IMG/VR virus record: IMGVR_UViG_3300023296_000646
Span: 1-64,000 of that record
DNA length: 64,000 nt
Origin: a virus
Direction: 5' to 3' (one strand)
Within the stretch, counting starts at the first letter, position 1, and the number at the start of each line of letters is the position of its first letter. The translations under genes and the position numbers were made by a program. Of this stretch, positions 23,105 to 52,542 are shown one piece after another. Below the pieces are notes generated by a model, which saw only the letters and a program-made list of their open reading frames with translations, did no database searches and was not told the DNA's origin.

Positions 23105-24715
23105 TTAAACTTGGTCCATATCACCAACGTATACTTTCCCGTAAAACTCTGGGCGAATCATTTTTTTAGCGTAACGGGTCATAACTCCCCTACGTGGTGT
23201 GAAGTTGGTCGGATCCAGAACAACAGGTGTTTGGATAAGTGGTACGTATGGAGCGTACACTGCACCTGTTTCCATGAATGAAGCGCCTTTATATCCCATA
23301 AGGATTACGTTTTCAACCATGTAAGGATTCTTGTAAACCGTATAACGGTTTCTAATTGTTCCTACAGCTTCAACACCAGCAGCAAACTGTGCTGAGTTTC
23401 CATCCGTATTAACATTGAATCCTGGAACTGATTCTAGAATCGTTGCTACATCCGGAGATGTTACAAGGAAGTTAGCCCCACCCTTCATCGTTAGACGATG
23501 GATGATATTAGATACCTTGTGCAATTTGATTCCTAGAGTGGCAAACCAAGTATTTTTCTGGTATGCTGACGCTGATGCTGAACTAGAATCCGCGACGAAT
23601 GCCGTTTGATCCGAATTGATTTCATAGCCAACCTTAGCTGACCAATATTCAACAGTCTGTGCACCCTTGATAAGCATATCAAGAATTTCTAGATCGATTT
23701 CTCTAGAGATATGATCACTAAGCAATGTAGTAAGCTCTGCTTCTGCGTCGATTGAGTGATACGCGTTCAAGTCTTGTGCCATTTCTGGTGTCCAACTTGC
23801 CTTCAACCTTTTGGTTTTCGCAACAATCTGCTCGCTACGTAGTTCCATATCAACCTGTGGAATTCCAAGGTCAGTAATAGTTCCAGTACCGTCTGATTGA
23901 TCTTCAAAGTCGCCACGGGTTGAATCCGTAGGCTGCACATGGTAATCAACAACTACTTGCGTAATTGGTGCTGATCCGGATACAATAAAGTAAACGTTTG
24001 TAGCGTCTACAGTAGTATATCGTGGATAGTAACTCTGAGCAGCAGCAAAATTTGATCCTGAGATTTCAAAAGCACGAATGCCTTCTAAGTCTGGACGTGT
24101 ATATCCTGATAGAGCTGAGGTAACTTTATGAAGTCTACCTGCTGCAGCAGAAGCTGAAAGATCTGCATCAAAGTTTACATCTTTCCAAGACGCCGTAGTG
24201 TCTGTAGGAGATGCAACCATTGTTACCTGTGAGTTGTTCGATGTATATCCGAAACGACCTGCATCATATAGACCACCAGTAGCAGTCTGTGTACGATTTT
24301 CTGCAAGACCTGTTCCACCGAATAGTGACGAGCCAGAATATGCAGGCTTACCTGCTTGGTTTGTCGCATACTTATAATCTAGATAAAAGATTAGTCCGGA
24401 TGGAAGATTCATTGGCTGTACTGATACAAATTCTTTTGCAGCAATTTCACCAAAGACGCGACGAACAAGCGGAAGAGCTACACCATTCCATTGTTCAGCG
24501 CCGTTGGAATTACCAACGTTTGTGGTTTCGTCAATCAATTGACGTGCTTGGTTTTCCAGAAGTACGGCCATACCACGAGCTTCGTAATCTGTTTTAAAGC
24601 CTTCTAGAAGTCCAGTTGGTTCCCATTTAGCCTTCAATCCGCGAGTTGCCTCTAGAATTTGTTGCTGAATGTTATTTGAACTTTCTAATAGTCCTTGAAT
24701 ATCTTGTGTATTCAT
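23105..24715 (-). CDS. Major capsid protein, gp23-like
   Basis: A 536-residue protein close to T4 gp23 (521). Conserved blocks are visible: ALPLVRRVFGEIAAKEFVSV followed by QPMNLPSGLIFYLDYKY, the mid-protein EMAQDLNAYHSIDAEAELTT segment, GGANFLVTSPDVATILESVP, YKNPYMVENVILMGYKG, and the C-terminal FTPRRGVMTRYAKKMIRPEF. The N-terminal ~63 residues form a helical propeptide ending RQLIDETT, where I61-D62-E63 fits the L/I-x-E site of the prohead protease, so the mature chain probably starts at T64. A strong ribosome-binding site (GAGGAAATAAC) and strong terminator suit high expression. It follows the scaffold gene by 13 bases. Confidence 0.95.
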   Translation of the reverse strand: MNTQDIQGLLESSNNIQQQILEATRGLKAKWEPTGLLEGFKTDYEARGMAVLLENQARQLIDETTNVGNSNGAEQWNGVALPLVRRVFGEIAAKEFVSVQPMNLPSGLIFYLDYKYATNQAGKPAYSGSSLFGGTGLAENRTQTATGGLYDAGRFGYTSNNSQVTMVASPTDTTASWKDVNFDADLSASAAAGRLHKVTSALSGYTRPDLEGIRAFEISGSNFAAAQSYYPRYTTVDATNVYFIVSGSAPITQVVVDYHVQPTDSTRGDFEDQSDGTGTITDLGIPQVDMELRSEQIVAKTKRLKASWTPEMAQDLNAYHSIDAEAELTTLLSDHISREIDLEILDMLIKGAQTVEYWSAKVGYEINSDQTAFVADSSSASASAYQKNTWFATLGIKLHKVSNIIHRLTMKGGANFLVTSPDVATILESVPGFNVNTDGNSAQFAAGVEAVGTIRNRYTVYKNPYMVENVILMGYKGASFMETGAVYAPYVPLIQTPVVLDPTNFTPRRGVMTRYAKKMIRPEFYGKVYVGDMDQV

Positions 24716-24728
24716 TGTTATTTCCTCT

Positions 24729-25739
24729 TTATGATTTAATGTTAGCTAATTCTTGGAATCTCGTACGCATGTTAACTTCTGAGATAATTTCTTTGTCTAC
24801 AGCTTTGGGTTTAGTCGATGCTATAGTCTTAGAACTTGATCCTTCAGAAATCTTAACGCGTTTGGCTACCGAATTAGGAAATGCTTTTGCTAAGGTTGCA
24901 TATACAAGCTTAACTTCACGTGTTGAATTCGCTCTGTCAAGAGTTTCAATAACTTGTGATTTTTGTGCATTGTCCATATCGAAAGCACGGAACAATTTAT
25001 TTGAGAATAAAAGTTTCGAATTTAAAAGATTCACTTCGTTGATTTTATCCTTAAGGAATATTACAACGTCACGATGTTCTTTTAAAGAAGCTTGAAGTTC
25101 TACCCTTTCGGTACGCAGTGTTTCAAGCTCTCGTGTTGAATCTTCTTTTTCTTCTAATTCTTCCGCTTCGTCTAGAGCACGTAAGATTTCGTCTAAGTCA
25201 AGGTCTTCATCATCTTCATCATCTTCATCATCTTCGTCTGCATCATCACTTTCGTCAACGGTATCGTCTTCCTCATCGTATTCGACTTCGTCGTCTTCAT
25301 CGCCATCGTTGTGATCTTCATTTACAGATTCATCTGATTCCAATTCTGCTATGATTTCGTCAAGATCAAGACCATCGTCATCATCTTCTTCGTCATCATC
25401 CCCAGCTTCGTCTTCGTCTTCGTTCTCTACTACTGCTTCATCTTCGTCAATCGATTCGCCTTCGTCGTCTGATTCTTCATCATCAACTACTTCACCATTT
25501 TCGGCTTTAGTCTCGTTTGCATTTTCTGATTTAGCTTCGTCTACTTCATCTCCATCCTCTTCATCATCACTTTCGTAATCATCATCATCCATATCATCCA
25601 TTTCAGCCTGTAGCTTTCTAGATAACATTGATTGGAGTTTTGGAGTAAAAGCTTCTTCTAATACCAGTTTGGCATTTTCAAGGGCTGTCTCGCGAACTAA
25701 CTTCGCTTCTGCAACAGCTTCCTTAAGCAAGTCACTCAT
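24729..25739 (-). CDS. Prohead core scaffold protein, gp22-like
   Basis: The frame is open to 25778, but the start at 25739 is chosen because it gives the typical scaffold N-terminus MSDLLKEAVAEAKLVRETAL and has an AGAGAAA ribosome-binding site. The protein is 336 residues: an N-terminal helix, a very acidic middle of Asp/Glu runs (about residues 50-190), then a coiled-coil region (TLRTERVELQASLKEHRDVV) and a C-terminal domain. Extreme acidity, helicity and position directly before the capsid gene fit T4 gp22, the main scaffold, which is degraded by the prohead protease during maturation. The acidic block is longer than in T4 (gp22 has 269 residues). Confidence 0.85.
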   Translation of the reverse strand: MSDLLKEAVAEAKLVRETALENAKLVLEEAFTPKLQSMLSRKLQAEMDDMDDDDYESDDEEDGDEVDEAKSENANETKAENGEVVDDEESDDEGESIDEDEAVVENEDEDEAGDDDEEDDDDGLDLDEIIAELESDESVNEDHNDGDEDDEVEYDEEDDTVDESDDADEDDEDDEDDEDLDLDEILRALDEAEELEEKEDSTRELETLRTERVELQASLKEHRDVVIFLKDKINEVNLLNSKLLFSNKLFRAFDMDNAQKSQVIETLDRANSTREVKLVYATLAKAFPNSVAKRVKISEGSSSKTIASTKPKAVDKEIISEVNMRTRFQELANIKS

Positions 25740-25824
25740 TTGTTTCTCTTTTTCTCTGAAGCAATTAAGTGACTTCAATATAGATTTGTGTCGTGTTACA
25801 CTATAGTAATAGGTATTCGTTAGT

Positions 25825-25833
25825 TATAAGTAT
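25825..25833 (-). promoter_or_regulatory. Putative late promoter element ATACTTATA for scaffold and capsid
   Basis: Gene-strand ATACTTATA, about 85 bases before the scaffold ATG in the gap after the bS21 gene. It is the C variant of the recurrent ATAYTTATA element, also seen at 55658 and at 47325 on the plus strand. Confidence 0.5.
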
Positions 25834-25864
25834 ACACGATATTAACAGAAAATTAAAATACTTT

Positions 25865-26086
25865 TTAATATTTTAGATTATTTGAATATTTTTTTGAACG
25901 CAGCTTGGAGATCGATCGCTCCTTGCGCTTCTTATCAGACGGTTTCTGAAATTCCATTCTCTGTTTGTATTCTAAGAGAATTTTGGAATTTTTTACTTTC
26001 TTCTTAAAAATAGATAGTGCTATGTCTAATCTACCATTTCTAACGGTCACACCAACACCGTTTCCTTTACTATAATGCTTTCCCAT
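25865..26086 (-). CDS. rpsU: Phage-encoded ribosomal protein bS21
   Basis: A 73-residue basic protein matching bacterial bS21 in order: VGVTVRNGRLDIALSIFKKK (strand and first helix), then EYKQRMEFQKPSDKKRKERS and SKLRSKKY. The diagnostic F-x-K-P-S followed by a Lys/Arg-rich helix is intact. bS21 sits on the small subunit near the mRNA exit and anti-Shine-Dalgarno, and affects initiation. Phages with bS21 genes are known, and the proteins are thought to enter host ribosomes. Here it lies inside the late head block, between small head proteins and the scaffold gene. That position suggests production during the capsid phase. It has a short extra N-terminus (MGKHYSKGNG) relative to most bacterial forms. 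Confidence 0.85.
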   Translation of the reverse strand: MGKHYSKGNGVGVTVRNGRLDIALSIFKKKVKNSKILLEYKQRMEFQKPSDKKRKERSISKLRSKKYSNNLKY

Positions 26087-26131
26087 ATTACTTAACCTTT
26101 ACGTCCATTTATAAAACCTTCCAACTAATTG

Positions 26132-26461
26132 TTATTTATTTTTTCCAGTGAATACACTATCTTTAGATGCGGCTACGATATAACGTAACTTATAATACTT
26201 CTTTTCACCAGGAGTTAGAAGTTTGTTCATGCGTTTCATCTTAGCTTGGGCATCAGCATACTCTTCAAAGATATTTTCTCCATCAGGAACTTTTATTCCA
26301 GTAAGATCTCTTACGTTACGTATATTCTTCTCACCGATTGAACCTCCTGATAAGACTACTGCGAATTTCGTAACTGAGTCTACTGCTTCATTTAGCGATC
26401 CTAATTTCATTCCAGATGCTATCTGTTCTGATAGAAGTTCTATTGTTGTTTTAGTTTTCAT
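26132..26461 (-). CDS. Putative internal head protein with capsid-targeting leader (109 residues)
   Basis: Begins MKTKTTIELLSEQIASGMKL and then GSLNEAVDS; L23-N24-E25 followed by Ala fits a prohead-protease cut site. The 104-residue neighbour at 26534 has nearly the same first 26 residues but a different body, as expected for a removable N-terminal leader like the capsid-targeting sequences of T4 internal proteins. The predicted mature part (~84 residues) is mixed alpha/beta and ends in a Lys-rich helix (KYYKLRYIVAASKDSVFTGK). It lies in the head block near the protease gene. Enzymatic function, if any, is not visible. The cargo role is inferred from leader, cut site and position. Confidence 0.6.
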   Translation of the reverse strand: MKTKTTIELLSEQIASGMKLGSLNEAVDSVTKFAVVLSGGSIGEKNIRNVRDLTGIKVPDGENIFEEYADAQAKMKRMNKLLTPGEKKYYKLRYIVAASKDSVFTGKNK

Positions 26462-26462
26462 A

Positions 26463-26534
26463 TTATTTAATATACGATTTAATTACTTTTACGATACCAT
26501 CCGTAAGATCTAGGAAATCTATGTAATCTAGCAT
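26463..26534 (-). CDS. Micro-ORF (23 residues) fitted exactly between two leader-tagged genes
   Basis: Starts at the ATG of a TAATG overlap with the stop of the 104-residue gene and ends TAA one base before the ATG of the 109-residue gene. The product is MLDYIDFLDLTDGIVKVIKS plus YIK, one amphipathic helix. The exact fit supports translation, at least as a coupling leader; a peptide function is unproven. Confidence 0.4.
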   Translation of the reverse strand: MLDYIDFLDLTDGIVKVIKSYIK

Positions 26535-26848
26535 TAGTACTCGTTCATTATCAATCGAAAGAATTCTTCAGAAAGATTACTTTCGTTAAATTTTGCATTT
26601 GGTCTGGTAGGGTGATCATTAGATAAAGTTATCTGGTACCAAACTGTACTAGAAGTATTACCATTAGAATGGTACACAATTAGTATTTTAGTAACTTTGA
26701 ATGTACCACCTAGTGAAGTCTTACCCTTGTCACCTACAGTAATTTCTCTAGGTACTCCTTTAGGGTATGCAGCTTCGTTAAACGATGTTAATCTCATACC
26801 ACCTGAAATTTGCTCTGATAGAAGTTCTATTGATGTTTTAGTTTTCAT
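26534..26848 (-). CDS. Putative internal head protein with capsid-targeting leader (104 residues)
   Basis: Begins MKTKTSIELLSEQISGGMRL then TSFNEAAY; F23-N24-E25 before Ala occupies the same place as LNE in the paralogue at 26132. The body is a small beta-rich domain (GGTFKVTKILIVYHSNG, VWYQITLSND) ending KFNESNLSEEFFRLIMNEY. That body resembles the 98-residue protein at 52246, whose end is KFKESNAGQTFLDLIRDTY but whose leader is different. So the same domain is joined to two different leaders in this phage. It lies two bases after the 223-residue head gene. Confidence 0.6.
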   Translation of the reverse strand: MKTKTSIELLSEQISGGMRLTSFNEAAYPKGVPREITVGDKGKTSLGGTFKVTKILIVYHSNGNTSSTVWYQITLSNDHPTRPNAKFNESNLSEEFFRLIMNEY

Positions 26849-26849
26849 A

Positions 26850-27521
26850 TTACTTGATTACCCAATCTTTTGTTTTACCATCAAAGATCACATTGAAATT
26901 TCTGAAATGTGATTTGAATTGTTTTATCTTTGAATGTGATATTACATCCCATTCGTCTTCTCCACCGTCATCTGTATAATATACTAGCACGTCACCAAAT
27001 TTAGATGCCATTCCAAGTAGATTTTTAAACCACGCAGTTTTTGCTAATTTCTTCACATATGCTACATTTATTTCTGATATTCGTTCAGGACCACCATGAA
27101 TAATTCTTGCTTCTTCTAACGCATCTGCATGTTCAGACAAATCCTTAATTTCAAAATACCTTCCTAGAACATGTCCCATATCATCAAACAGGGCGTTCAT
27201 TCTATTTTCCAATTTGATTGCATCCTGAGATGTTTTAATGAATTCCTCGTTGAACTTCTTAAGTTCCTTCATATTTCTTTTTATTGTAACTTGATCAAAC
27301 CAATCATCGGCCTCGTTCATTGTAAACGCTTCTGCCGCATTTGCAACTGTTCCAAGTTCTTTTGCAATTTCAGATAATGAATGGCTGCGTTCTAATCTTT
27401 TACCATATTCTGCATATGTTGCAACTAGACGTAAAAAGCCGTTTTTAGCTTCTTCGCTAAGTACTGGGCCTTCTATATCCTTTAGTTGGGCTTCTGTTAA
27501 AAAGAAATCTTTTAAGTTCAT
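26850..27521 (-). CDS. Putative prohead-associated protein (223 residues)
   Basis: A longer frame reaches 27587, but the ATG at 27521 is preferred because the longer version overlaps the protease gene and lacks the leader-like start. From 27521 the protein begins MNLKDFFLTEAQLKDIEGPV followed by LSEEAKNG. L8-T9-E10 and L21-S22-E23 fit prohead-protease sites, and a short hydrophobic leader before LTE recalls T4 capsid-targeting leaders. The body is helical (residues ~25-130) followed by an alpha/beta end (WFKNLLGMASKFGDVLVYYT, FRNFNVIFDGKTKDWVIK). No known enzyme motif is seen. It lies 17 bases after the protease gene. Confidence 0.6.
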   Translation of the reverse strand: MNLKDFFLTEAQLKDIEGPVLSEEAKNGFLRLVATYAEYGKRLERSHSLSEIAKELGTVANAAEAFTMNEADDWFDQVTIKRNMKELKKFNEEFIKTSQDAIKLENRMNALFDDMGHVLGRYFEIKDLSEHADALEEARIIHGGPERISEINVAYVKKLAKTAWFKNLLGMASKFGDVLVYYTDDGGEDEWDVISHSKIKQFKSHFRNFNVIFDGKTKDWVIK

Positions 27522-27538
27522 CTTAGTTTCTCTAATTG

Positions 27539-28153
27539 TTATTGTAGTTCCATTAAGATATTTCTCATAATATCTTGTGATCTGCAATATTCGTTACACA
27601 TATATCGTTCTTCATCAGTGATTCCAACAGATTCATTTACCGGGGTTAGAAACGCCCCATGCGTGCTTGGATTTGATACGAAATCAAATGCAATTAGTTC
27701 AAAGTCGTCCTGAACTTCTAGTGTTCCTTCACCTAGTGGGCGTACTGATCCCATTCCCCTGCTACTAATACCCAATGTGATATTACTTTCAAACAATTTC
27801 TTAAGAATGTTTCCGCTTGGGGTTGGGAGAACCTCAATGGTACCAATAACATCATCACCTTTAAAATGAATCTCCTTTACGTTATGTGATACGTTTTTTA
27901 AGTTTACAACAGATGATTCCGGATGATCTAATTCACCAAGCGCATTTCTGTTAGATACAAAATTTTGGTGATACTTACGTACCTCTCTTACGAGAATATC
28001 TTTTGGATATATTCTTCCATTTTGATTTTTTGCGTCTGCTCTTTGAAGAACTCCGTTTACAATAAACATTCCATTACCATCTTCAGTAATAGCTTCATTC
28101 ATTGACTGAACTTCAAATTGAAACGGCATATATTCTAATAGTAGTTTTTTCAT
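27539..28153 (-). CDS. Prohead core protease, gp21-like
   Basis: A 204-residue protein, close to T4 gp21 (212). Family features visible are NQNGRIYPKDILVREV, the catalytic His in GELDHPE (H77), the catalytic Ser in ITLGISSRGMG (S130 or S131), and FELIAFDFVSNPST with D157. The enzyme cuts scaffold, capsid propeptide and internal proteins after L/I-x-E inside the prohead before DNA packaging. Possible self-processing sites are MNE 18-20 near the N-terminus and VNE 172-174 near the C-terminus. It is surrounded by candidate substrates. The motif set makes this a firm call. Confidence 0.92.
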   Translation of the reverse strand: MKKLLLEYMPFQFEVQSMNEAITEDGNGMFIVNGVLQRADAKNQNGRIYPKDILVREVRKYHQNFVSNRNALGELDHPESSVVNLKNVSHNVKEIHFKGDDVIGTIEVLPTPSGNILKKLFESNITLGISSRGMGSVRPLGEGTLEVQDDFELIAFDFVSNPSTHGAFLTPVNESVGITDEERYMCNEYCRSQDIMRNILMELQ

Positions 28154-28157
28154 AGTG

Positions 28158-28331
28158 TTAAACCCATGTCCCCCTTTTCTTAAACAAATCGAAAAATATT
28201 GCTGCTATCTCCTTCCTAATAAACTTACGAAGTACTTCAAAATCAGCTGAGTCTAATTCCTCATTCAATAGTGAGTTACTAGATAGTTCTTCTCTAACTA
28301 ATTGTTCTATTTGAGTTTTAGTTATTTTCAT
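28158..28331 (-). CDS. Small late head-type protein (57 residues)
   Basis: Starts at the ATG 28331, inside the end of the upstream gene (14-base overlap), and stops five bases before the protease ATG. It begins MKITKTQIEQLVREELSSNS with LLNEELDS after it (a possible LNE site at 22-24), then LRKFIRKEIAAIFFDLFKKR and GTWV. The start K-I-T-K-x-x-I-x-x-L-V-R-E-E-L is a common opening of small T4-like head proteins, and the I-A-A-I-F-F-D-L-F-K-K-R ending also looks familiar from that group. A core component analogous to T4 gp67 or gp68 is possible by position. Confidence 0.65.
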   Translation of the reverse strand: MKITKTQIEQLVREELSSNSLLNEELDSADFEVLRKFIRKEIAAIFFDLFKKRGTWV

Positions 28332-29217
28332 GTGGATCTATTGTTGCTAATTTATCGTAATATTCTGGATCTTCAACTAAATGATCTAACGCAATTTCTG
28401 CAGCTATATTTAAATTAGGAGTATGTTCTAATTCTACTTTAGTGCCAATTTTAAGTTGGCTGTGAATTTGATCTAAAGAAACACCATGCATATCTGCAAT
28501 TTCTTGTGGATTTTTTCCACTTGAAACTCCACCAGGAATTTCTTCTTCAGTTACAACTTCTGACAATTTAATAGAATGTCCAGATCTTACATAAATTTTA
28601 CGATCTTCATCATCAGTTCCAAGCGTTTTAATCACCTTAGATAAATTTTGCAATTCCTTTCTAATTGCAACTAAAGGTTTTACAATTTTACCAACTCCTT
28701 TAAGTTTTGTATCTGCAGATCCGTTTTGACCCCTGACTCCGGCTAATATGTCATCAATTACAATACTAAGATCATTTCTAAGTTTTCCAAGATCTTTATA
28801 TGTTGCACCTTCGTTTAGTTCTGAAGATTCATTTAAATTTTTATCTAATTTGTCATCCCAGTCTATATCCTGTTGGTAGATAAACTTACCATTACTAGCT
28901 TCATACTTTTCTCTAGGTTTAACTATTTTACTTATCGTATATGTTTTAATTCTTCCAGATCTTATAGATCTAACTTTAACCTTATCTCCAACCTTTCTAG
29001 CCTTACCTACCTTGTATGATTCGCTTAGTTTTGAAGATTCCTTTTTAGAATTCCAACGTTCGTCTATATCTGTAAATAGCTTCTGTTGTGAGCTTTCTGG
29101 CATATTATTAAATTTATCAGATCCAACCTTATCTAAAATTTGCATAATAAAATTATGATAATCAGATTGTTCGTTTGCAATTTCTTTAACTATTTGCTTT
29201 AATTTGCCTTTATTCAT
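28318..29217 (-). CDS. Modular head-core protein with C-terminal DUF5661-like domain
   Basis: A 299-residue protein that looks like small domains joined by prohead-protease sites: LSE 64-66, LNE 128-130, LNE 134-136 and LSE 218-220. Segment 1-66 is helical and starts MNKGKLKQIVKEIANEQSDY. Segment 67-127 is SH3-like (VGDKVKVRSIRSGRIKTYTI). Segment 137-217 is a helical bundle. Segment 221-299 matches the DUF5661 pattern (EIADMHGVSLDQIHSQLKIG, VELEHTPNLNIAAEIALDHL, EDPEYYDKL). It lies between the protease and portal genes, one base from the next gene. It may be a polyprotein packed in the core and cut into pieces. The domain boundaries are inferred; no function is known. Confidence 0.65.
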   Translation of the reverse strand: MNKGKLKQIVKEIANEQSDYHNFIMQILDKVGSDKFNNMPESSQQKLFTDIDERWNSKKESSKLSESYKVGKARKVGDKVKVRSIRSGRIKTYTISKIVKPREKYEASNGKFIYQQDIDWDDKLDKNLNESSELNEGATYKDLGKLRNDLSIVIDDILAGVRGQNGSADTKLKGVGKIVKPLVAIRKELQNLSKVIKTLGTDDEDRKIYVRSGHSIKLSEVVTEEEIPGGVSSGKNPQEIADMHGVSLDQIHSQLKIGTKVELEHTPNLNIAAEIALDHLVEDPEYYDKLATIDPHENN

Positions 29218-30011
29218 TATTTCATCTCCCTTAGATTTCTAGCTAGTTTAAGAATACGCTCACTAATCTTATTCATTTTAACATGAGTAGATTTCCAATA
29301 AGTATCTGGAGTTACTCCTGTTTCTGTTTTTAATTTTTTCAATTGTTTTACTGCGCGTTCTATTCTATATAACTTACCACTAATTTCCTTAATAGTCTTT
29401 CCAATTTTTTGTCTAGGAGATCGTGTTTCATCATTCTTAAGGGCTCTATACGAAACCTCGTTTAATTTAGATTTATTTTTCTTAGTTTGAGTTCCTATAA
29501 TTTTTTTTACGGCTCTGTATTCATCTACCATATCATTAAATCTGCGATATGATGATTTATCAATTACGTCCAATAACTTAAGGTCTATGATATTAGTTTG
29601 AAGCGCAAACATTGCGTTTGTTACCTTGCTGAAGTTATTGATATAATCTATATTACCTTTAGCTTCATTAATATTGTCTGCCTTGCCATGAATCTGCTTA
29701 GACACCGTTCCGTGAGCAATTCTAGCATCATCTGAATCTTTCTTTTTGCGACTCTTCTTTCCAGAAAATGCACCAGGAACATTATATCCTGCTACTGAAG
29801 CCTGAGCTGTCATTTCATCAACAGTTTCTTCATCAGTATCTTCTAATTGTCTTCTGACCATATACTTTGAAGTAATATCCTTTGCAGATTTTTCGTTTAA
29901 CCCAATAGATGCAAATAAACTCTCTACTGATTCTACAGTAGGAGTTTTTAATTTGGTATCTACCATTGAAAAAATCTTTTCTAGATTTTCCTTATTTACC
30001 TTTTGCGACAT
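29217..30011 (-). CDS. Modular head-core protein (264 residues)
   Basis: A mainly helical, Lys-rich protein with L/I-N-E sites at 38-40 (GLNEKS), 114-116 (INEAKG) and 183-185 (KLNEVS). These split it into four parts: 1-40, 41-116 (with a basic KKSRKKKDSD stretch), 117-185 (helical, TNAMFALQTNIIDLKLLDVI) and 186-264 (basic helices, LYRIERAVKQLKKLKTETG). The start overlaps the previous gene by 20 bases and the end overlaps the next by one. The regular placing of sites suggests maturation into several small basic peptides inside the head, as T4 core proteins are. No family is recognised. Confidence 0.6.
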   Translation of the reverse strand: MSQKVNKENLEKIFSMVDTKLKTPTVESVESLFASIGLNEKSAKDITSKYMVRRQLEDTDEETVDEMTAQASVAGYNVPGAFSGKKSRKKKDSDDARIAHGTVSKQIHGKADNINEAKGNIDYINNFSKVTNAMFALQTNIIDLKLLDVIDKSSYRRFNDMVDEYRAVKKIIGTQTKKNKSKLNEVSYRALKNDETRSPRQKIGKTIKEISGKLYRIERAVKQLKKLKTETGVTPDTYWKSTHVKMNKISERILKLARNLREMK

Positions 30012-30861
30012 GCTCTAACTCCTTTATAAGTTCATAAGCCATCATAACTGCGGTTACATGATTATCTTTAACAATTCTCCCGTGAGATGCAGTCTGTAGT
30101 TGCTTAATAGTTTCTTCTAATTTTATTATAGTTACACTATCATCAATCCTCTTTGATATAGCCTTTAAAACTAATTGAATTTTTGGAACTTCTGATTTTA
30201 TGTACTCACTTAACGAATTAGTATTTGATACGTTATTGATGTATTCCCTAAGAAGTTTCTTCTGACGACTGTCAAATGATTTGTATTTATCGTTGAATTT
30301 TTTAAGAAATACATACTGAGATAATTTTCTAGTATCAGCATCTTCTTTTGAAAACGCTTCCATAAGTGGATCTATTTTTGTCACCTTAGCAGACGAATCA
30401 CTTATAATAGATTCTATAATAGTTGTCTTAGATACAAATACATCCTTAGGTCTATATAATTTTGTACTAGTTGCGTTTTCAAACAACTTGTAAATTGATG
30501 CTAGCACTTTATATGAGGTAACCTGAGATCTAAAGAATTTATCAATATCATACGTATTCTTTATTTCCTTAATCAGTTCAAATTTTTCTAATCCTAATCT
30601 ACGTTCACTAAGTCTTTTACGAGCTCCTAGAACTGCATCTAAAATTCGTTCTGCCTTGATTTCAGATATAACTCGCTTTGAAAGAATCAAGTGATACATT
30701 TGAAGTTCTTTCCCAAGCTCAGTGCCTTTACCAAAATACTTAGATAAAATACCTTCTGCCAATGATTCTCTTCCACCAATTATATCTGCAGTAATTTGGC
30801 GCACAATCATTTCATACAAAAAACCAGTATTTTTATATTTTGAATGTCTTAGTTTTCTCAT
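29992..30861 (-). CDS. Conserved late head-block protein after the portal (289 residues)
   Basis: Begins MRKLRHSKYKNTGFLYEMIV and is almost wholly helical and basic, with phrases FGKGTELGKELQMYHLILSK, LGLEKFELIKEIKNTYDIDK and FFRSQVTSYKVLASIYKLFE. This pattern is familiar from uncharacterised proteins of environmental T4-like phages, where the opening M-R-K-L-x-H-x-K-Y-K-N-T-G is conserved. It has a candidate late promoter about 35 bases upstream and sits directly behind the portal gene. A role in the prohead core or portal vertex is plausible from position. It lacks the obvious internal protease sites of its neighbours, apart from a possible LSE near 217. Confidence 0.65.
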   Translation of the reverse strand: MRKLRHSKYKNTGFLYEMIVRQITADIIGGRESLAEGILSKYFGKGTELGKELQMYHLILSKRVISEIKAERILDAVLGARKRLSERRLGLEKFELIKEIKNTYDIDKFFRSQVTSYKVLASIYKLFENATSTKLYRPKDVFVSKTTIIESIISDSSAKVTKIDPLMEAFSKEDADTRKLSQYVFLKKFNDKYKSFDSRQKKLLREYINNVSNTNSLSEYIKSEVPKIQLVLKAISKRIDDSVTIIKLEETIKQLQTASHGRIVKDNHVTAVMMAYELIKELEHVAKGK

Positions 30862-35756: not shown

Positions 35757-38171
35757 TTATTGCTGCTCTATTGTCATTTTTTTGTCGTATGCGTCTTTTT
35801 TCATATCGACAATTTGTTGAATGAATGGCGATCTTCGTAAAGCTTTAAATGCAAGATTTTCTACAGATAATTCCCCACCAGATTCTAATCCGCTTTGTCT
35901 CATTCTTTTTAACTTATCTTGAATATCTTCAATTGCACTAATTACCTTATCATATTTAGCGTCATTCATATAACCTTCTAAAATTGGAATCATTCTCATA
36001 AAATTATCTGCCTTGCTGACTACATCATCTATATCAATAGTAGACACGTCTTTGTTAGGAACACTGATCCAATTATCCTTTACTATGGAATATAGACCAG
36101 ACGCTATATGAGTTTCTCCAATGTTTTCTACAAATACTTCTACAGGAAACCCATGAATCTTAATATCGTGCTTTGTATTCCATACAGTCTTCTTAGCCAA
36201 TACTAAATTGCGAACTAAATCTTCGTTTTCGTCTATATCAGAAAATTTAATTCTAATATGAAGATCTATGTCAGAAAATTTAGACCAATTGAAATTTGAA
36301 ATACTTCCAGTAAGTGTAATGTCTTGTATTTTTACACCTTCATTAAATTCTAATCCTTCAAAAAATTCTTCTGCTATTATTAGCAGTTTGGTGCGAACAT
36401 CTGATTTTAGTTTGCTATCATTCCAAATTTTAGGATTTAGTGAATCCTGAGTTTTGAAGCTGTTCAATACGTCTGAAGGAATATCTTCATTTATACCAAG
36501 TCTGTTACGAGTCTGAGCCGGTGTTTCTCCACGTCTAGCACCTCTAATTGGTTTTTCAGAACCCAATTTACCTTGAATCTTCTTTTTCTTTTTAATCATA
36601 GGAGATTTTCCATGATCAATATCTATTCCCTTAGCAGTATTACTTCCAGTATACTCAGAAGGTTTTATAATTCTAGTTCCCTTTTCATCCTTTCCTGCTG
36701 TCTTCTTTCCAAGATATATTTCTAATTTGTATTTATTGCCAATAATTTTAATTTTCAATTGACGTTCAATTGATTTTAGTATTTTTAATAATACTGACTT
36801 ATTTGGTGGATATTTCCAAAATGATATTACCTTACGTCTTATCCAAATTCTACCTGGATATTCCCAATCATCTCTATCGGTTGGTAGTAAATCAAACTCA
36901 TCTTCATCTATAAAATCTTCATCCAATAAATGCATTGATAATTCATCATGATATGTATCATGATTTCTTGCAACATACGTTTTTCCCTTATATGAGCTAA
37001 AGGCTCTTGCATCTCGCTCATCATATTGAACTAAACTACCAACCCAATCTGGATTTTCGTTTAGTTTAGCCTTTCTAAATGTTACAACCTTTCTTCCGTT
37101 TATTGTTGGCATTCCATGCTCATCTGTTCCAATGGCCTTTACTATAGTTTTCTTATTTTTAAATTTGCCAGTTAATATCGTATCACCAATTTTTACGTCT
37201 ATACTAATTGCTTCATTTAGATATATGTTCTTTTCTGAAACCTTCTTAAATTTGGTTATGATATCCCCAGCTAGCGCATGTGCTTCTGTTTCTAATGGAT
37301 CTGTTTGATCTATTGCCCATTTACTTCCGTCTTCTGCAATAGCCCCAAGTCTACCATCTTCATTCTGCTTATGATGAACTAACTCATGAACTACTGATCT
37401 TAGATAATCTGCTAGCGCTCTTCCTTTGGTATAAATTTTAATGTCAAATGACATTGGATTATAATAAGCAGTAGTAGAAATATCTTCTCTGCTATCTGTT
37501 AATTTTATCGGAGGTCGTTCTCTAATGCTAAGTTCTTTAATGGCAAACTGAATTAAATCTTCTGTAATTGCCTTATCACCATCTTCAGATTCATATTCAA
37601 ATAATGTAACTGATTCTGAAATTTGTGGCTTTTCTTTTGCATCTGCTTTAGATTGCTTACTTGTTATACGTTTTTCTGCTGCAGTATTTATTCTAGTTTC
37701 TCTGCTTTTTACCAATTCATACCCAACCATAGCAGCTCGCCTGGTAACATGAGTAAACCACTTATTCCATGCTTCACTACCAACTAAATCTTGCTGATTT
37801 GTTGGCGTTTTTTTTCCTGCATCACCTGCAGGGAAAAATGATACAGAATCTACTGGCCCATTTGGATATATTGGTGGGTTGTCATCATCATCAGATGCAC
37901 CATCTATAATATAGTTGATAACAGACCATCCAATCTGCTCTGCTCTTTCTTTTGTAACTCTCTTATAAATAGAATGATTTTTGTAATGATAGTTTGGACC
38001 ATCATCAACTGCTAACAATCCACCGCCTACGCTAGTATTTGTCAATTCGTCTAAAACATTTTTAAATGAATCAGTTTGCACATACTCTAGTATTTCTTCT
38101 TCAGTTGGAAGGAGTTCTAATACGTCGTCTACTAAAAATAAGTCTGCTAATTGTATAGAAAGTTCGTTCAT
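35757..38171 (-). CDS. Multidomain putative head cargo: zinc metallopeptidase motif plus nucleotidyltransferase
   Basis: An 804-residue protein. Residues ~187-320 hold a zincin motif, HELVH (262-266) in LRSVVHELVHHKQNED, with a possible third ligand at E294 or E296 (DPLETEAHALAGD). Residues ~564-804 resemble a phage nucleotidyltransferase domain with GS (622-623) and the metal-binding D634-x-D636 in SKFSDIDLHI. Between domains are LNE 318-320 and LNE 370-372, INE 560-562, FNE 609-611 and ISE 184-186, which look like prohead-protease sites. Residues 321-370 are a small beta domain. It opens the head transcript behind a late-type promoter. I infer a packaged polyprotein cut into separate enzymes, possibly injected as T4 Alt is. 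Substrates are unknown. Confidence 0.65.
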   Translation of the reverse strand: MNELSIQLADLFLVDDVLELLPTEEEILEYVQTDSFKNVLDELTNTSVGGGLLAVDDGPNYHYKNHSIYKRVTKERAEQIGWSVINYIIDGASDDDDNPPIYPNGPVDSVSFFPAGDAGKKTPTNQQDLVGSEAWNKWFTHVTRRAAMVGYELVKSRETRINTAAEKRITSKQSKADAKEKPQISESVTLFEYESEDGDKAITEDLIQFAIKELSIRERPPIKLTDSREDISTTAYYNPMSFDIKIYTKGRALADYLRSVVHELVHHKQNEDGRLGAIAEDGSKWAIDQTDPLETEAHALAGDIITKFKKVSEKNIYLNEAISIDVKIGDTILTGKFKNKKTIVKAIGTDEHGMPTINGRKVVTFRKAKLNENPDWVGSLVQYDERDARAFSSYKGKTYVARNHDTYHDELSMHLLDEDFIDEDEFDLLPTDRDDWEYPGRIWIRRKVISFWKYPPNKSVLLKILKSIERQLKIKIIGNKYKLEIYLGKKTAGKDEKGTRIIKPSEYTGSNTAKGIDIDHGKSPMIKKKKKIQGKLGSEKPIRGARRGETPAQTRNRLGINEDIPSDVLNSFKTQDSLNPKIWNDSKLKSDVRTKLLIIAEEFFEGLEFNEGVKIQDITLTGSISNFNWSKFSDIDLHIRIKFSDIDENEDLVRNLVLAKKTVWNTKHDIKIHGFPVEVFVENIGETHIASGLYSIVKDNWISVPNKDVSTIDIDDVVSKADNFMRMIPILEGYMNDAKYDKVISAIEDIQDKLKRMRQSGLESGGELSVENLAFKALRRSPFIQQIVDMKKDAYDKKMTIEQQ

Positions 38172-47351: not shown

Positions 47352-47525
47352 ATGTCTAGAAATACAGATTACAAAATGCTTCAGATACCACTAGAAGCAC
47401 ATTCAGTTCTAAAACGATATTGTTCAGAAAACGACTACAAAATGGGAAAGTTTGTTGGTAAACTAATTGTTAGGGAATTGGGAAAATTAAAGCCAGATGG
47501 AAAGATGTTACCTACGGGTAATTGA
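47352..47525 (+). CDS. Small ribbon-helix-helix-like protein (57 residues)
   Basis: A lone plus-strand gene between two minus-strand blocks. It begins MSRNTDYKMLQIPLEAHSVL, continues KRYCSENDYKMGKFVGKLIV and ends in a Lys-rich tail. A short beta strand (KMLQIPLEAH), a helix, a turn with G, and a second helix is the ribbon-helix-helix (Arc/MetJ) layout of small DNA-binding repressors. The element ATACTTATAAGAAATAGG precedes it. Its last 14 bases overlap the 3-prime end of the convergent nuclease gene. A late-expressed regulator, perhaps shutting off the recombination or replication genes it faces, is inference. The coding call is supported by composition and position. Confidence 0.6.
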   Translation: MSRNTDYKMLQIPLEAHSVLKRYCSENDYKMGKFVGKLIVRELGKLKPDGKMLPTGN

Positions 47526-50500
47526 TGTAACTAAATCCATCTTCCTTTTTTATCTCAATTAATTTATCTACCACATCTCTCATAACATCTAAGTGGGATA
47601 TTACGATTACAAATTCGAACTGACTTCTTAGATATTCAAACATCGTAAACATTGATGTAAGATTTTCTGAATCTAAATTTCCAAATCCTTCATCAACTAC
47701 TAGGAAGTTTGACCTAGGTAAGCTACACACATTCATTGTAGCCACTCTCATACACAAATCAATAATGAACTGTTCCATTCCACTAGATAGTTCCACTAGC
47801 CAACTTGATCCATCTTCATTGATTTTACCAACAATATCCTTTCCGTCAACCTCTAATGATATTGTAAATTCTTGGGTTTGTCCTAATATGTTGTTTACTT
47901 CGTTTTCAATTGCAGGAAGAGTTTTAGCAATCAGCTCAGATGGAATTCCGTCTCGCTTAGTTGCAGTTAAATAATATTCGTAAACTGCATATTCATTTTC
48001 TAATTCTCTAAGCTGCTCAATTTGTTCTAACGTAGATTCAATTCTAGTTTCTAATGCTCGCAGATTACCAATTGCAGAAGTGTGAACTCTATATTTAGAA
48101 TCATATGTTTCAGATAATGCTGAAAGTTCTTTGTTCAATAACGAAAGTTCAAGTTCAATTTTTGTATTTTTATCAATTTGATCTTTATTATCCTTGAATC
48201 TTTGTATGTTTTCAGCTATAGGTAATAATCTATTTTGTCTATTTTGAATTTCACCACTTAGTCTAGCAACCCTATTTTCTGATTCTGATTTCGCTAATTC
48301 TAGTTTTGATACTTCACGAACTAATCTAATTGCGTTTGTGTACTCTACATAAATTGTGTTATCAACATTCAATTCTGACATTTCCTTATTGATAATTCTA
48401 GCAGATTCAATTAGCGACTTCATATTTGATTTGTCGTTAGATATTTCTTCCTCTAATTGAGATACTAATTTAATATGACCTTTTGCGTTGAAAACGCAAA
48501 ATCCACAATCTTCATCATAGTCGTATTCATCCTTTACTGAAGACAATCTTGCCTTTTTAGAAATGATAGCAGTTTTTAATTCAACTGCCTTTCCCTTTAT
48601 TGTTCTAACCTTAGTTGATAATTCCTCATTTCTATCATGTCTAAACGTAATTTCATCTACATCAACTTTATCTAATTTTTTAGATTTCCTTTTGAATTGT
48701 TTTGTATGTTCAGATAGTTTAGAATTTAATCCTTCTAAATCTATTTCAAGTTTAGATATTTCATATTCAAATGTAGCTAGCGTATCTTCTAATTTTTCTA
48801 AATCATTTCCATGTACATCTACCTTTACCATTGATGCTTCCTTAGTAGAAATTTTATCTCTAAGTTTTATGACATCCTTTTCAATTGCTTTAACTTCTAC
48901 CTTAGTGGTATCAAACTCTGATTGAACACCGTCTAACTCTTCATCCAACTCAGTTAAAATTTCATCATGATCTACCTTCTTAAGCAATTTTACTTGAGCA
49001 GCTCGTTCTTTAGTATCTGTAGAAGCTAATTTATTAAGTCTATCATAAATGCCAATTCCCATAAACTGAGACAAGAGATCTTTACGCTGAGACTGTTTCT
49101 TTTTAATAAATGTAGAATTATTACCCTGAAGTGATATTGTTGTTGCTATGAAATCATCATACGTTCCAATATGGTTTCGTATGTTAGCATTGGTACCATT
49201 TCTATCAGCTCCATTTAGAGGAATTCTAACCCCATCTTCCAACTTATAAAAACTCACAGGAACCCGTAACGATTTTGCACCTTGAGTTGCTACCCTTTCA
49301 ATAACATATTCAGTATCTGCAATTTGAAATTTAAATTCACATTCAAATCCATCAGATTTTCTGTTTTTAATATGATCTGCTTTAAATGTCTTAGATGATT
49401 TATCAAACAGACAAAATAACATCACATCCAATACAGATGATTTACCACTTCTATTTGGCGCAAACAGTCCATATAATCCAGCTAAATCCGTAAACTCTAA
49501 TGAATTTCCAAGACCATATGAAAACATATTATCGAATTTTAACGATATCGGTTTCCATACAACATTTCGAATAATCTCTTCTTCTGAAAGTCTACTATTT
49601 AAATCTGCGTTAATTTTAGCAATCTCAGAAACGGTATCCATATCTAATGAAAATTTTCTATCCAAATAATCTTTTAGTAACTCTAGCTGATATTCCACGT
49701 TAGTAACATCTCCGAATGTCAATGTGTTATCAGTTTTACCGTCTCTAGAAAATACGTCTAGCCTATTTATCGTATATGACTTTATGTTATGCTTCTTTCG
49801 AAATTCAACTAACGCTAATTTTAAATCTGCAGATGTTGTGTTTTGAACTTGAATCCTAAGTCTAGGATTCTTAGGCATATCGTCTACATTTGGAATTACA
49901 CCATTATTAATTTCTAACGTATAATACCCATAGTCGTTTACAATATCTTGAAAATCTGCATCTTCTAATTTGCCATCTGTAAAGTTCCATTGCATAAATC
50001 CATGGCCATCTAATGCCTCACCATGATTTTGCTGAACTAGAGATCCTGCATATGCAATTAGTGGGTTATCTGATTCTGGAATAATTTGACGCTTATGAAT
50101 ATCTCCACATAAAACTAGTGGACATCCTTCAAATGTTTCCGGAGTTGTATCCGTATCATATAATACGAATCCGGTATCCGTTTCAGATGCATCTACTGGA
50201 CCATGAAATAATCCTATATTATATCTACCGTCGTCTGGGGGCGTTGGCCAATCCTTTGGATCTTCAAAAATGCCATAATGAACCAAATTGATATCTGCTA
50301 ACCTATATACTCCTGAATCCTTCAAATAATGAATATTTGGATTATTCATGTTATCAATTATGGGAGATAGCGCATCTAGTCGATTGGCGTTATTTTGATT
50401 GCAATCATGGTTGCCTGGTATTAATACAGTTGGGTATCTACTTGAACATTCAGATAAAAAATTAGAGATCATCTGGATCAATTCTGGTGACATCTCAGTT

Positions 50501-50697
50501 TTTGCGTGAGCAATATCACCAGCTATATAAATAATTGACTTTTTAGACGCCCGTTCTGGCTGATCAATCTCTTCTAGAAAGTTTTTAAATACTTGCCTAT
50601 ATTCTTCATGTCTCTTAACATTTCGAATATGTAAATCTGCTATGTGAAAAATTCTGTGTAGTTTCTTAAATCCTACATCAATGGTTTCATAATTCAT
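47512..50697 (-). CDS. Fused Mre11-Rad50-type recombination nuclease (gp47 + gp46)
   Basis: A single 1061-residue protein. Residues 1-~330 are a calcineurin-like phosphoesterase with the Mre11/gp47 metal sites: D21 and H23 (IADLHIR), D61 (AGDIAHAK), N97-H98 (IPGNHDCN), H165 (GLFHGPVD), and D199 and H201 (CGDIHKRQ). Residues ~380-1061 are a Rad50/gp46 ATPase: Walker A APNRSGKSS (413-421), a long coiled coil with the zinc hook C731-GF-C734, the signature LSSGMEQF (970-977), Walker B FLVVDEGFGNLD (998-1009) and the H-loop VISHLD. In T4 these are two proteins (339 and 560 residues). The complex resects DNA ends for recombination-dependent replication. All catalytic residues appear intact. Confidence 0.93.
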   Translation of the reverse strand: MNYETIDVGFKKLHRIFHIADLHIRNVKRHEEYRQVFKNFLEEIDQPERASKKSIIYIAGDIAHAKTEMSPELIQMISNFLSECSSRYPTVLIPGNHDCNQNNANRLDALSPIIDNMNNPNIHYLKDSGVYRLADINLVHYGIFEDPKDWPTPPDDGRYNIGLFHGPVDASETDTGFVLYDTDTTPETFEGCPLVLCGDIHKRQIIPESDNPLIAYAGSLVQQNHGEALDGHGFMQWNFTDGKLEDADFQDIVNDYGYYTLEINNGVIPNVDDMPKNPRLRIQVQNTTSADLKLALVEFRKKHNIKSYTINRLDVFSRDGKTDNTLTFGDVTNVEYQLELLKDYLDRKFSLDMDTVSEIAKINADLNSRLSEEEIIRNVVWKPISLKFDNMFSYGLGNSLEFTDLAGLYGLFAPNRSGKSSVLDVMLFCLFDKSSKTFKADHIKNRKSDGFECEFKFQIADTEYVIERVATQGAKSLRVPVSFYKLEDGVRIPLNGADRNGTNANIRNHIGTYDDFIATTISLQGNNSTFIKKKQSQRKDLLSQFMGIGIYDRLNKLASTDTKERAAQVKLLKKVDHDEILTELDEELDGVQSEFDTTKVEVKAIEKDVIKLRDKISTKEASMVKVDVHGNDLEKLEDTLATFEYEISKLEIDLEGLNSKLSEHTKQFKRKSKKLDKVDVDEITFRHDRNEELSTKVRTIKGKAVELKTAIISKKARLSSVKDEYDYDEDCGFCVFNAKGHIKLVSQLEEEISNDKSNMKSLIESARIINKEMSELNVDNTIYVEYTNAIRLVREVSKLELAKSESENRVARLSGEIQNRQNRLLPIAENIQRFKDNKDQIDKNTKIELELSLLNKELSALSETYDSKYRVHTSAIGNLRALETRIESTLEQIEQLRELENEYAVYEYYLTATKRDGIPSELIAKTLPAIENEVNNILGQTQEFTISLEVDGKDIVGKINEDGSSWLVELSSGMEQFIIDLCMRVATMNVCSLPRSNFLVVDEGFGNLDSENLTSMFTMFEYLRSQFEFVIVISHLDVMRDVVDKLIEIKKEDGFSYINYP

Positions 50698-52245: not shown

Positions 52246-52542
52246 TTAGTATGTATCTCTAATCAAATCAAGGAATGTTTGCCCTGCGTTTGATTCTTTA
52301 AATTTGACGCCGTCCTTTAATACGATTTCATAAGTAACCGATATTCCAACTCCTTCACGACCTTGTCTATAAAAATTAGATTTTAAAATTTTAACTTTAC
52401 CACCCTTTCCGGTAGGGTATGTTTTGCCAACTTCATATTGATCGTATCCTGCATCTTTAGCTTCTGAAAGATTATTGCGCTTAAATTTGGCACTTTCATT
52501 TAAATCATTCATTAGCGTTCTTAATTTCATTGCATCTGTCAT
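52246..52542 (-). CDS. Putative internal head protein with second leader type (98 residues)
   Basis: Begins MTDAMKLRTLMNDLNESAKF, with LNE at 14-16 and a further LSE at 25-27 (NNLSEAKDAG). The leader is shared with the 89-residue gene at 52551. The body GGKVKILKSNFYRQGREG, VTYEIVLKDG and KFKESNAGQTFLDLIRDTY resembles the body of the 104-residue protein at 26534. This gives one domain with two different leaders at two loci. The predicted mature part is a small basic beta domain of about 70 residues. Role as packaged cargo is inferred from cut sites and family relation. Confidence 0.6.
   Translation of the reverse strand: MTDAMKLRTLMNDLNESAKFKRNNLSEAKDAGYDQYEVGKTYPTGKGGKVKILKSNFYRQGREGVGISVTYEIVLKDGVKFKESNAGQTFLDLIRDTY

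Follow-up and report, generated by a model that had tools for sequence, protein, structure and literature searches.

We propose that the 804-residue chain encoded at 35757-38171 is multi-module cargo of the prohead core that would be cut by a gp21-type protease, and whose modules would be carried into the host with the DNA. We put the probability of this reading at about two in three. The window, meaning the whole stretch of DNA that was analyzed, is 64,000 nucleotides long and comes from a viral contig of 94,980 bases. Packaging and cutting of the chain, as predicted from sequence, are well supported by conserved [L/I]xE sites at module junctions, by T4-like leaders on syntenic homologues, by a gp21-type protease in the head gene cluster, and by homologues in the virions of Synechococcus phage S-CREM2. 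The first-pass annotation had suggested that the chain is packed in the prohead and cut between its modules. Comparison with related chains supported this suggestion in part. One of the named sites, FNE 609, is very probably wrong, and the chain's own leader has Asp at the position where Glu is required for processing in T4.

Gene and module layout

The chain is read from an uninterrupted minus-strand reading frame of 804 amino acids, and an identical chain was found on one further contig. Judged from sequence and models, at least two unrelated catalytic domains, a zincin and a nucleotidyltransferase, are joined in this one polypeptide. The catalytic motifs and the five cleavage-like tripeptides (ISE, two LNE, INE, and FNE) that had been pointed out earlier were re-derived at exactly the positions claimed for them. 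The parts of the gene are as follows.

35757..38171, minus strand: whole gene, 804-residue multi-module chain
38046..38171, minus strand: residues 1-42, N-terminal leader region, starting MNELSIQLAD and ending at the predicted site LDE 40-42
37614..38045, minus strand: N1 module, residues 43-186, with the predicted site ISE 184-186 (37614-37622) at its end
37212..37613, minus strand: predicted zincin module, residues 187-320, with the predicted site LNE 318-320 (37212-37220) at its end
37374-37388 and 37278-37292, minus strand: zincin motifs HELVH 262-266 and ETEAH 294-298, respectively
37056..37211, minus strand: small module, residues 321-372, with the predicted site LNE 370-372 (37056-37064) at its end
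36486..37055, minus strand: middle part, residues 373-562, with a Lys-rich end and the predicted site INE 560-562 (36486-36494) last
35760..36485, minus strand: predicted Pol-beta-type nucleotidyltransferase module, residues 563-804, with GS...SDID 622-636 (36264-36308)
36339..36347, minus strand: FNE 609-611, named earlier and judged a non-site, within the folded nucleotidyltransferase

Residues 1-42 start in the same way as the MNELSxFLVE leaders on syntenic chains, and N1 (residues 43-180) is common to the N-terminal part of chains of 700-1800 residues. The small module, which occurs alone or inside giant chains on at least 458 viral contigs, is probably beta-rich; it was folded without relatives, and "SH3-like" is a guess at its fold. 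Residues 374-562 had no relatives in phages, in the fetched loci, or in genome contigs, the contig query also having held the nucleotidyltransferase.

The C-terminal 240 residues match phrog_36119 (E = 1.1e-40). Across 22 sequences, the G, S, D, and D of the nucleotidyltransferase motif and an acidic residue (E) on a later strand are invariant, and the module is by these features a predicted Pol-beta-type nucleotidyltransferase. The best matches in a fold search were CdnE and AAD(9)/ANT enzymes, at E-values of about 1e-3 and with low TM-scores. Relatives of the module are mostly stand-alone genes at other places; many of these lack a leader, and the same is true for some relatives of the zincin.

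Residues 187-320 are predicted to be a minimal zincin of the gluzincin type, the AlphaFold2 model having a helix, three strands, the HExxH helix, and a Glu helix. The nearest solved folds were those of the minigluzincins selecase, jannalysin, and abylysin (Foldseek probability 0.99). These have the minimal fold, the HExxH, and a Glu on the next helix in common with the chain's zincin, but the E-values are just about 0.01 and the sequence identity is about 14%. We also noted a zincin (HEMIHH) in a 907-residue protein of Flavobacterium phage immuto (locus L016, 4261-6981) that is annotated as an NMN adenylyltransferase; a second HExxH motif (HEIEH) lies downstream of the first.

Cleavage-like sites in the chain

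Compared with composition shuffles, the chain is enriched in [LIF]NE (4 against 0.61 expected; p=0.004) and in [LIF]xE (20 against 12.1 expected; p=0.008), and its [LIF]xD count is that of the shuffles. The same bias is seen in the eight prohead-core genes at 24729-30861, with 10 [LIF]NE against 1.9 expected, and elsewhere in the window there is none (8 against 10 expected).

For the location of these sites, we used two domain-level AlphaFold2 models; the whole-chain alignment misaligned module fragments. ISE 184-186, LNE 318-320, LNE 370-372, and INE 560-562 fall wholly or partly within segments of pLDDT <50 that have ordered domains on either side. Thus, the claim that the tripeptides sit near domain borders held for four of the five, which are in predicted flexible linkers and not in buried strands or helices, but failed for FNE 609-611. 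This tripeptide is inside the nucleotidyltransferase, where it occupies an ordered loop with a helix on one side and a strand on the other. Because of this ordered position within the domain and its lack of conservation, we rejected FNE 609-611, which is probably not a processing site.

Head genes and the prohead protease

The window holds a T4-type head gene cluster, on the minus strand throughout, with TerL, the portal Gp20, an S77 prohead protease, an acidic scaffold-like protein, and the major capsid protein. The genes that bear on cutting and packaging are listed here.

27539..28153, minus strand: prohead protease, Peptidase_S77 (Pfam E=9.9e-28; 34% identity to T4 gp21)
23105..24715, minus strand: major capsid protein, with LIDE (ending at residue 63) followed by TT
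26132..26461, minus strand: small prohead-core gene, leader MKTKTTIELLSEQIASGMKLGSLNE followed by A, candidate for co-packaging
26534..26848, minus strand: small prohead-core gene, leader MKTKTSIELLSEQISGGMRLTSFNE followed by A, candidate for co-packaging

The His, Ser, and Asp regions of the protease align with those of T4 gp21, and we propose this enzyme as the cutter of the chain. T4 gp21 cleaves after L/I-x-E (PMC9026906). The capsid protein of this phage appears to follow the same pattern, its LIDE and TT matching the T4 gp23 maturation site, FLTE (ending at residue 65) followed by AE.

Several other genes drew our attention. Three small minus-strand proteins (26132-26461, 26534-26848, and 52246-52542) have [LF]NE followed by A or S near residue 14-25; two of them have the common start MKTKT[TS]IELLSEQI, and the bodies of the 26534 and 52246 proteins look related by eye. 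Farther along the same contig, at 73761-74129 on the minus strand (L270, 9761-10129), a 122-residue protein with the leader MAHVKLTELLTE followed by AD is a packaging candidate. A single minus-strand ORF of the window, 47512-50697, matches both SbcD-like and SbcC-like phage families, as if T4 gp47 and gp46 were fused.

A junction rule in related giant chains

We counted junctions in chains of other marine contigs, made nonredundant at 80%. The tripeptide [L/I/F/V/M]-x-E stands directly N-terminal to the P-loop kinase module in 10 of 10 chains, with L in six and I in four at P3, with N, S, Q, E, T, A, or K at P2, and with E in all ten at P1. It also stands directly ahead of ligase-like modules (14/16) and small beta modules (23/28). 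In N1, with one unrelated chance match left out, [LIV]xE is found 11-16 residues ahead of DDGPN in all 19 N1-bearing chains, the 804-residue chain counted. By this rule, the 804-residue chain gains a site, LDE 40-42, that the earlier reading had missed. At the nucleotidyltransferase junction, the INE of the 804-residue chain is replaced by VNE, ISE, ILE, LEE, and VNE in other chains, and the site is absent from chain L195. Zincin modules have [LI]xE ahead of them in most chains.

Over 59 nonredundant chains, 65% of the well-supported module starts have [LIF]xE within about 10 residues, compared to 22% of random positions, and [LIF]xD, [LIF]xK, [LIF]xQ, and [AG]xE are flat at module starts. When the edges were collapsed by homology, the excess was smaller (z of 2.1-4.3); this single-linkage collapse fused nearly all families, with a loss of power, and the control set, which consisted of other large ORFs, was too small to settle the matter. 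A single tripeptide rule that leaves its middle residue free and holds across unrelated folds is hard to explain by structure alone.

As a separate observation, the giant chains L111, L113, L147, L061, and L268 have cytidylyltransferase, CCA-type tRNA nucleotidyltransferase, P-loop kinase, and ligase-like modules among their parts, the last with an EKLDG that was spotted by eye. It is possible that these modules together make up a packaged RNA-repair set.

Similar junctions could be left behind in a chain that is packaged and stays uncut, a one-piece ejection protein of the polyvalent type that acts as a multidomain effector. Its LxE junctions would then have been inherited from the leaders of small cargo proteins that had fused into one chain. 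Stand-alone modules do bear [L/I]xE leaders, and fusion alone would put the motif at every joint; moreover, polyvalent proteins have been described as multidomain and packaged (PMC5512222). However, P3 and P1 are fixed in distant chains while P2 and the upstream linker are free, a pattern that points to selection acting on the site once the modules had been joined. The protease and its cargo would also share the prohead, and in T4 both ends of Alt are cut (PMC5694885). We consider an uncut chain unlikely.

The cuts could instead be made by the chain itself, its zincin severing the linkers and the prohead protease having no role. The zincin is complete, with HExxH and Glu, and polyvalent proteins have been proposed to free their domains through embedded zincins (PMC5512222). 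Against such self-processing, the junction rule also applies in chains where no zincin was detected by similarity (e.g., L147 and L170), and it coincides with the gp21 rule and with the site in the capsid protein of the same phage. We regard it as highly improbable and prefer cutting by the prohead protease.

Genomic place and leaders

All 16 giant chains compared for position share the strand of the portal gene, and 14 of them lie 2.6-4.3 kb upstream of it; N1 is present in most of these 16 chains and absent from two. The 804-residue chain lies 3.0 kb upstream of the portal, and the same slot is used in the cultured Microcystis phage Mel-JY01. The 804-residue chain is the syntenic member of a giant-chain family of marine phages, whose genes for the most part lie 3-4 kb upstream of the portal gene. 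An S77 protease is encoded on 23 and a T4 portal on 28 of the 35 contigs with giant chains, many of which are fragments. On four contigs (G018, G019, G013, and G035, which are behind L161, L164, L132, and L120, respectively), the open frames with the T4-type portal match are 943-1440 residues long, and the match is split within them or covers just a part, which would fit the insertion of a large domain or an intein into the portal protein.

Many giant chains start with MN[EK]LSxFLVE, and T4 IPII and IPIII both start with MKTYQEFIAE. The first 10 residues in T4 serve head targeting, with positions 4 and 7 used for targeting and positions 8 and 10 for cutting; an Asp at position 10 blocks cutting while targeting is kept (PMC9026906). 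A strict 10-residue T4 template was fit by 44 of 3255 distinct ORFs from the fetched loci against 1.25 expected from shuffling, although many of the 44 are mutual homologues and the template was set after the leaders had been seen. With seven other residues at position 10, there were 0-6 fits. A loose test that accepted [LIFM]xE at any place between residues 4 and 28 gave no difference from other ORFs.

The leader of the 804-residue chain, MNELSIQLAD, has Leu at position 8 but departs from the syntenic MNELSQFLVE by Gln for the aromatic residue at position 7 and Asp for Glu at position 10. Under the T4 rule, a chain with this leader might be targeted, with its first cut further in.

Homologues in virions

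S-CREM2 encodes a homologue of the nucleotidyltransferase module, ORF156 (126012-126725; 31.5% identity, E=1e-20 by tblastn). In the S-CREM2 virion proteome, ORF156 was represented by 6 unique peptides, ORF154 by 3, and ORF155 by 5 (PMC10665884, Table 3). ORF154 is a cytidylyltransferase with the leader MKNFSSFLTE, and the leader of ORF156 reads MKKLISE. NMNAT-like proteins have also been detected repeatedly in cyanophage virions (PMC9602691). The S-CREM2 data support packaging of the module families, by way of distant, stand-alone homologues rather than a cut chain.

These data also bear on whether the chain might be a tail- or fiber-associated protein, or a cytosolic multidomain one, whose motifs cap the modules structurally and are not targets of a protease. 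The gene directly adjoins a 3008-residue fiber-like gene, and the many leaderless nucleotidyltransferases mentioned above would fit such a protein. But the unrelated folds obey a single tripeptide rule in which the middle residue is free, the leaders on syntenic chains match the T4 capsid-targeting sequence position by position, homologues are found in virions, and the junction sites are conserved while the FNE within a domain is not. A role in the tail or cytosol therefore seems quite unlikely to us.

Proposed mechanism and significance

In the prohead-cargo model that we prefer, the chain would be synthesized together with the head genes and would enter the prohead core. During maturation, the S77 prohead protease would cut the linkers after [L/I]-x-E, at residues 42, 186, 320, 372, and 562. 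These cuts would free the zincin, the small beta module, the nucleotidyltransferase, and two parts of unassigned role, and the freed modules would remain in the head and enter the host with the DNA. Their targets probably belong to early counter-defense or host takeover, and a peptidase and a nucleotidyltransferase would fit the roles in these processes that have been proposed for polyvalent proteins (PMC5512222).

More broadly, we lean slightly toward the view that the prohead protease of marine T4-type phages processes true polyproteins. One late gene would bring several enzymes into the prohead to be cut apart there, its modules would be interchangeable, with their own [L/I]xE junctions and a T4-type leader, and cutting would be in step with head maturation. 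If true, a single scheme would account for the fusion of unrelated phage enzymes into chains of 1000-1800 residues beside the portal, and it would explain why stand-alone copies of the chain enzymes frequently have short [L/I]xE leaders. The sequence rule would then serve to list the proteins probably injected by uncultivated phages as infection begins; many of these may act in counter-defense or host takeover.

Comparison with known systems

Cargo processed by the prohead protease, namely T4 Alt and the internal proteins, and injected polyvalent proteins with several enzymes are already known. In the open-licence literature, we found no description of module-by-module [L/I]xE junctions in the giant chains of T4-type phages.

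The polyvalent proteins of Iyer et al. 2017 (PMC5512222) resemble the 804-residue chain in having unrelated catalytic domains in each chain, with zincins and Pol-beta nucleotidyltransferases among their components, in belonging to phages with portal-terminase packaging, and in their proposed injection. They differ in that processing was proposed there to be by embedded zincins and not by the prohead protease. The 804-residue chain had no Pfam match to an ArdC-N/LPD-type polyvalent signature domain up to E=1, and these authors left T4 Alt out of the genuine polyvalent proteins.

The head ejection proteins of phiKZ and SPN3US are also packaged into the head and ejected, with cutting after x-x-Glu (PMC5694885, PMC10052503). 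Their proteases, however, are S80-type and cut after S/A-x-E, and the known cuts trim propeptides, with none between enzyme modules. S-CREM2 has in its virions the same nucleotidyltransferase family (ORF156) and the same cytidylyltransferase-type module as the giant chains, but the S-CREM2 and cyanophage genes are stand-alone, lie away from the portal, and each have their own leader.

There are also close parallels with T4 IPI-III and Alt, which are processed by gp21 (S77). The head gene setting, the protease family, and the [L/I]xE sites are alike, and the leader start of the giant-chain family matches the 10-residue capsid-targeting sequence. T4 cargo proteins are single and are trimmed at one or both ends, whereas the 804-residue chain is made up of several unrelated modules with a predicted site at each joint.
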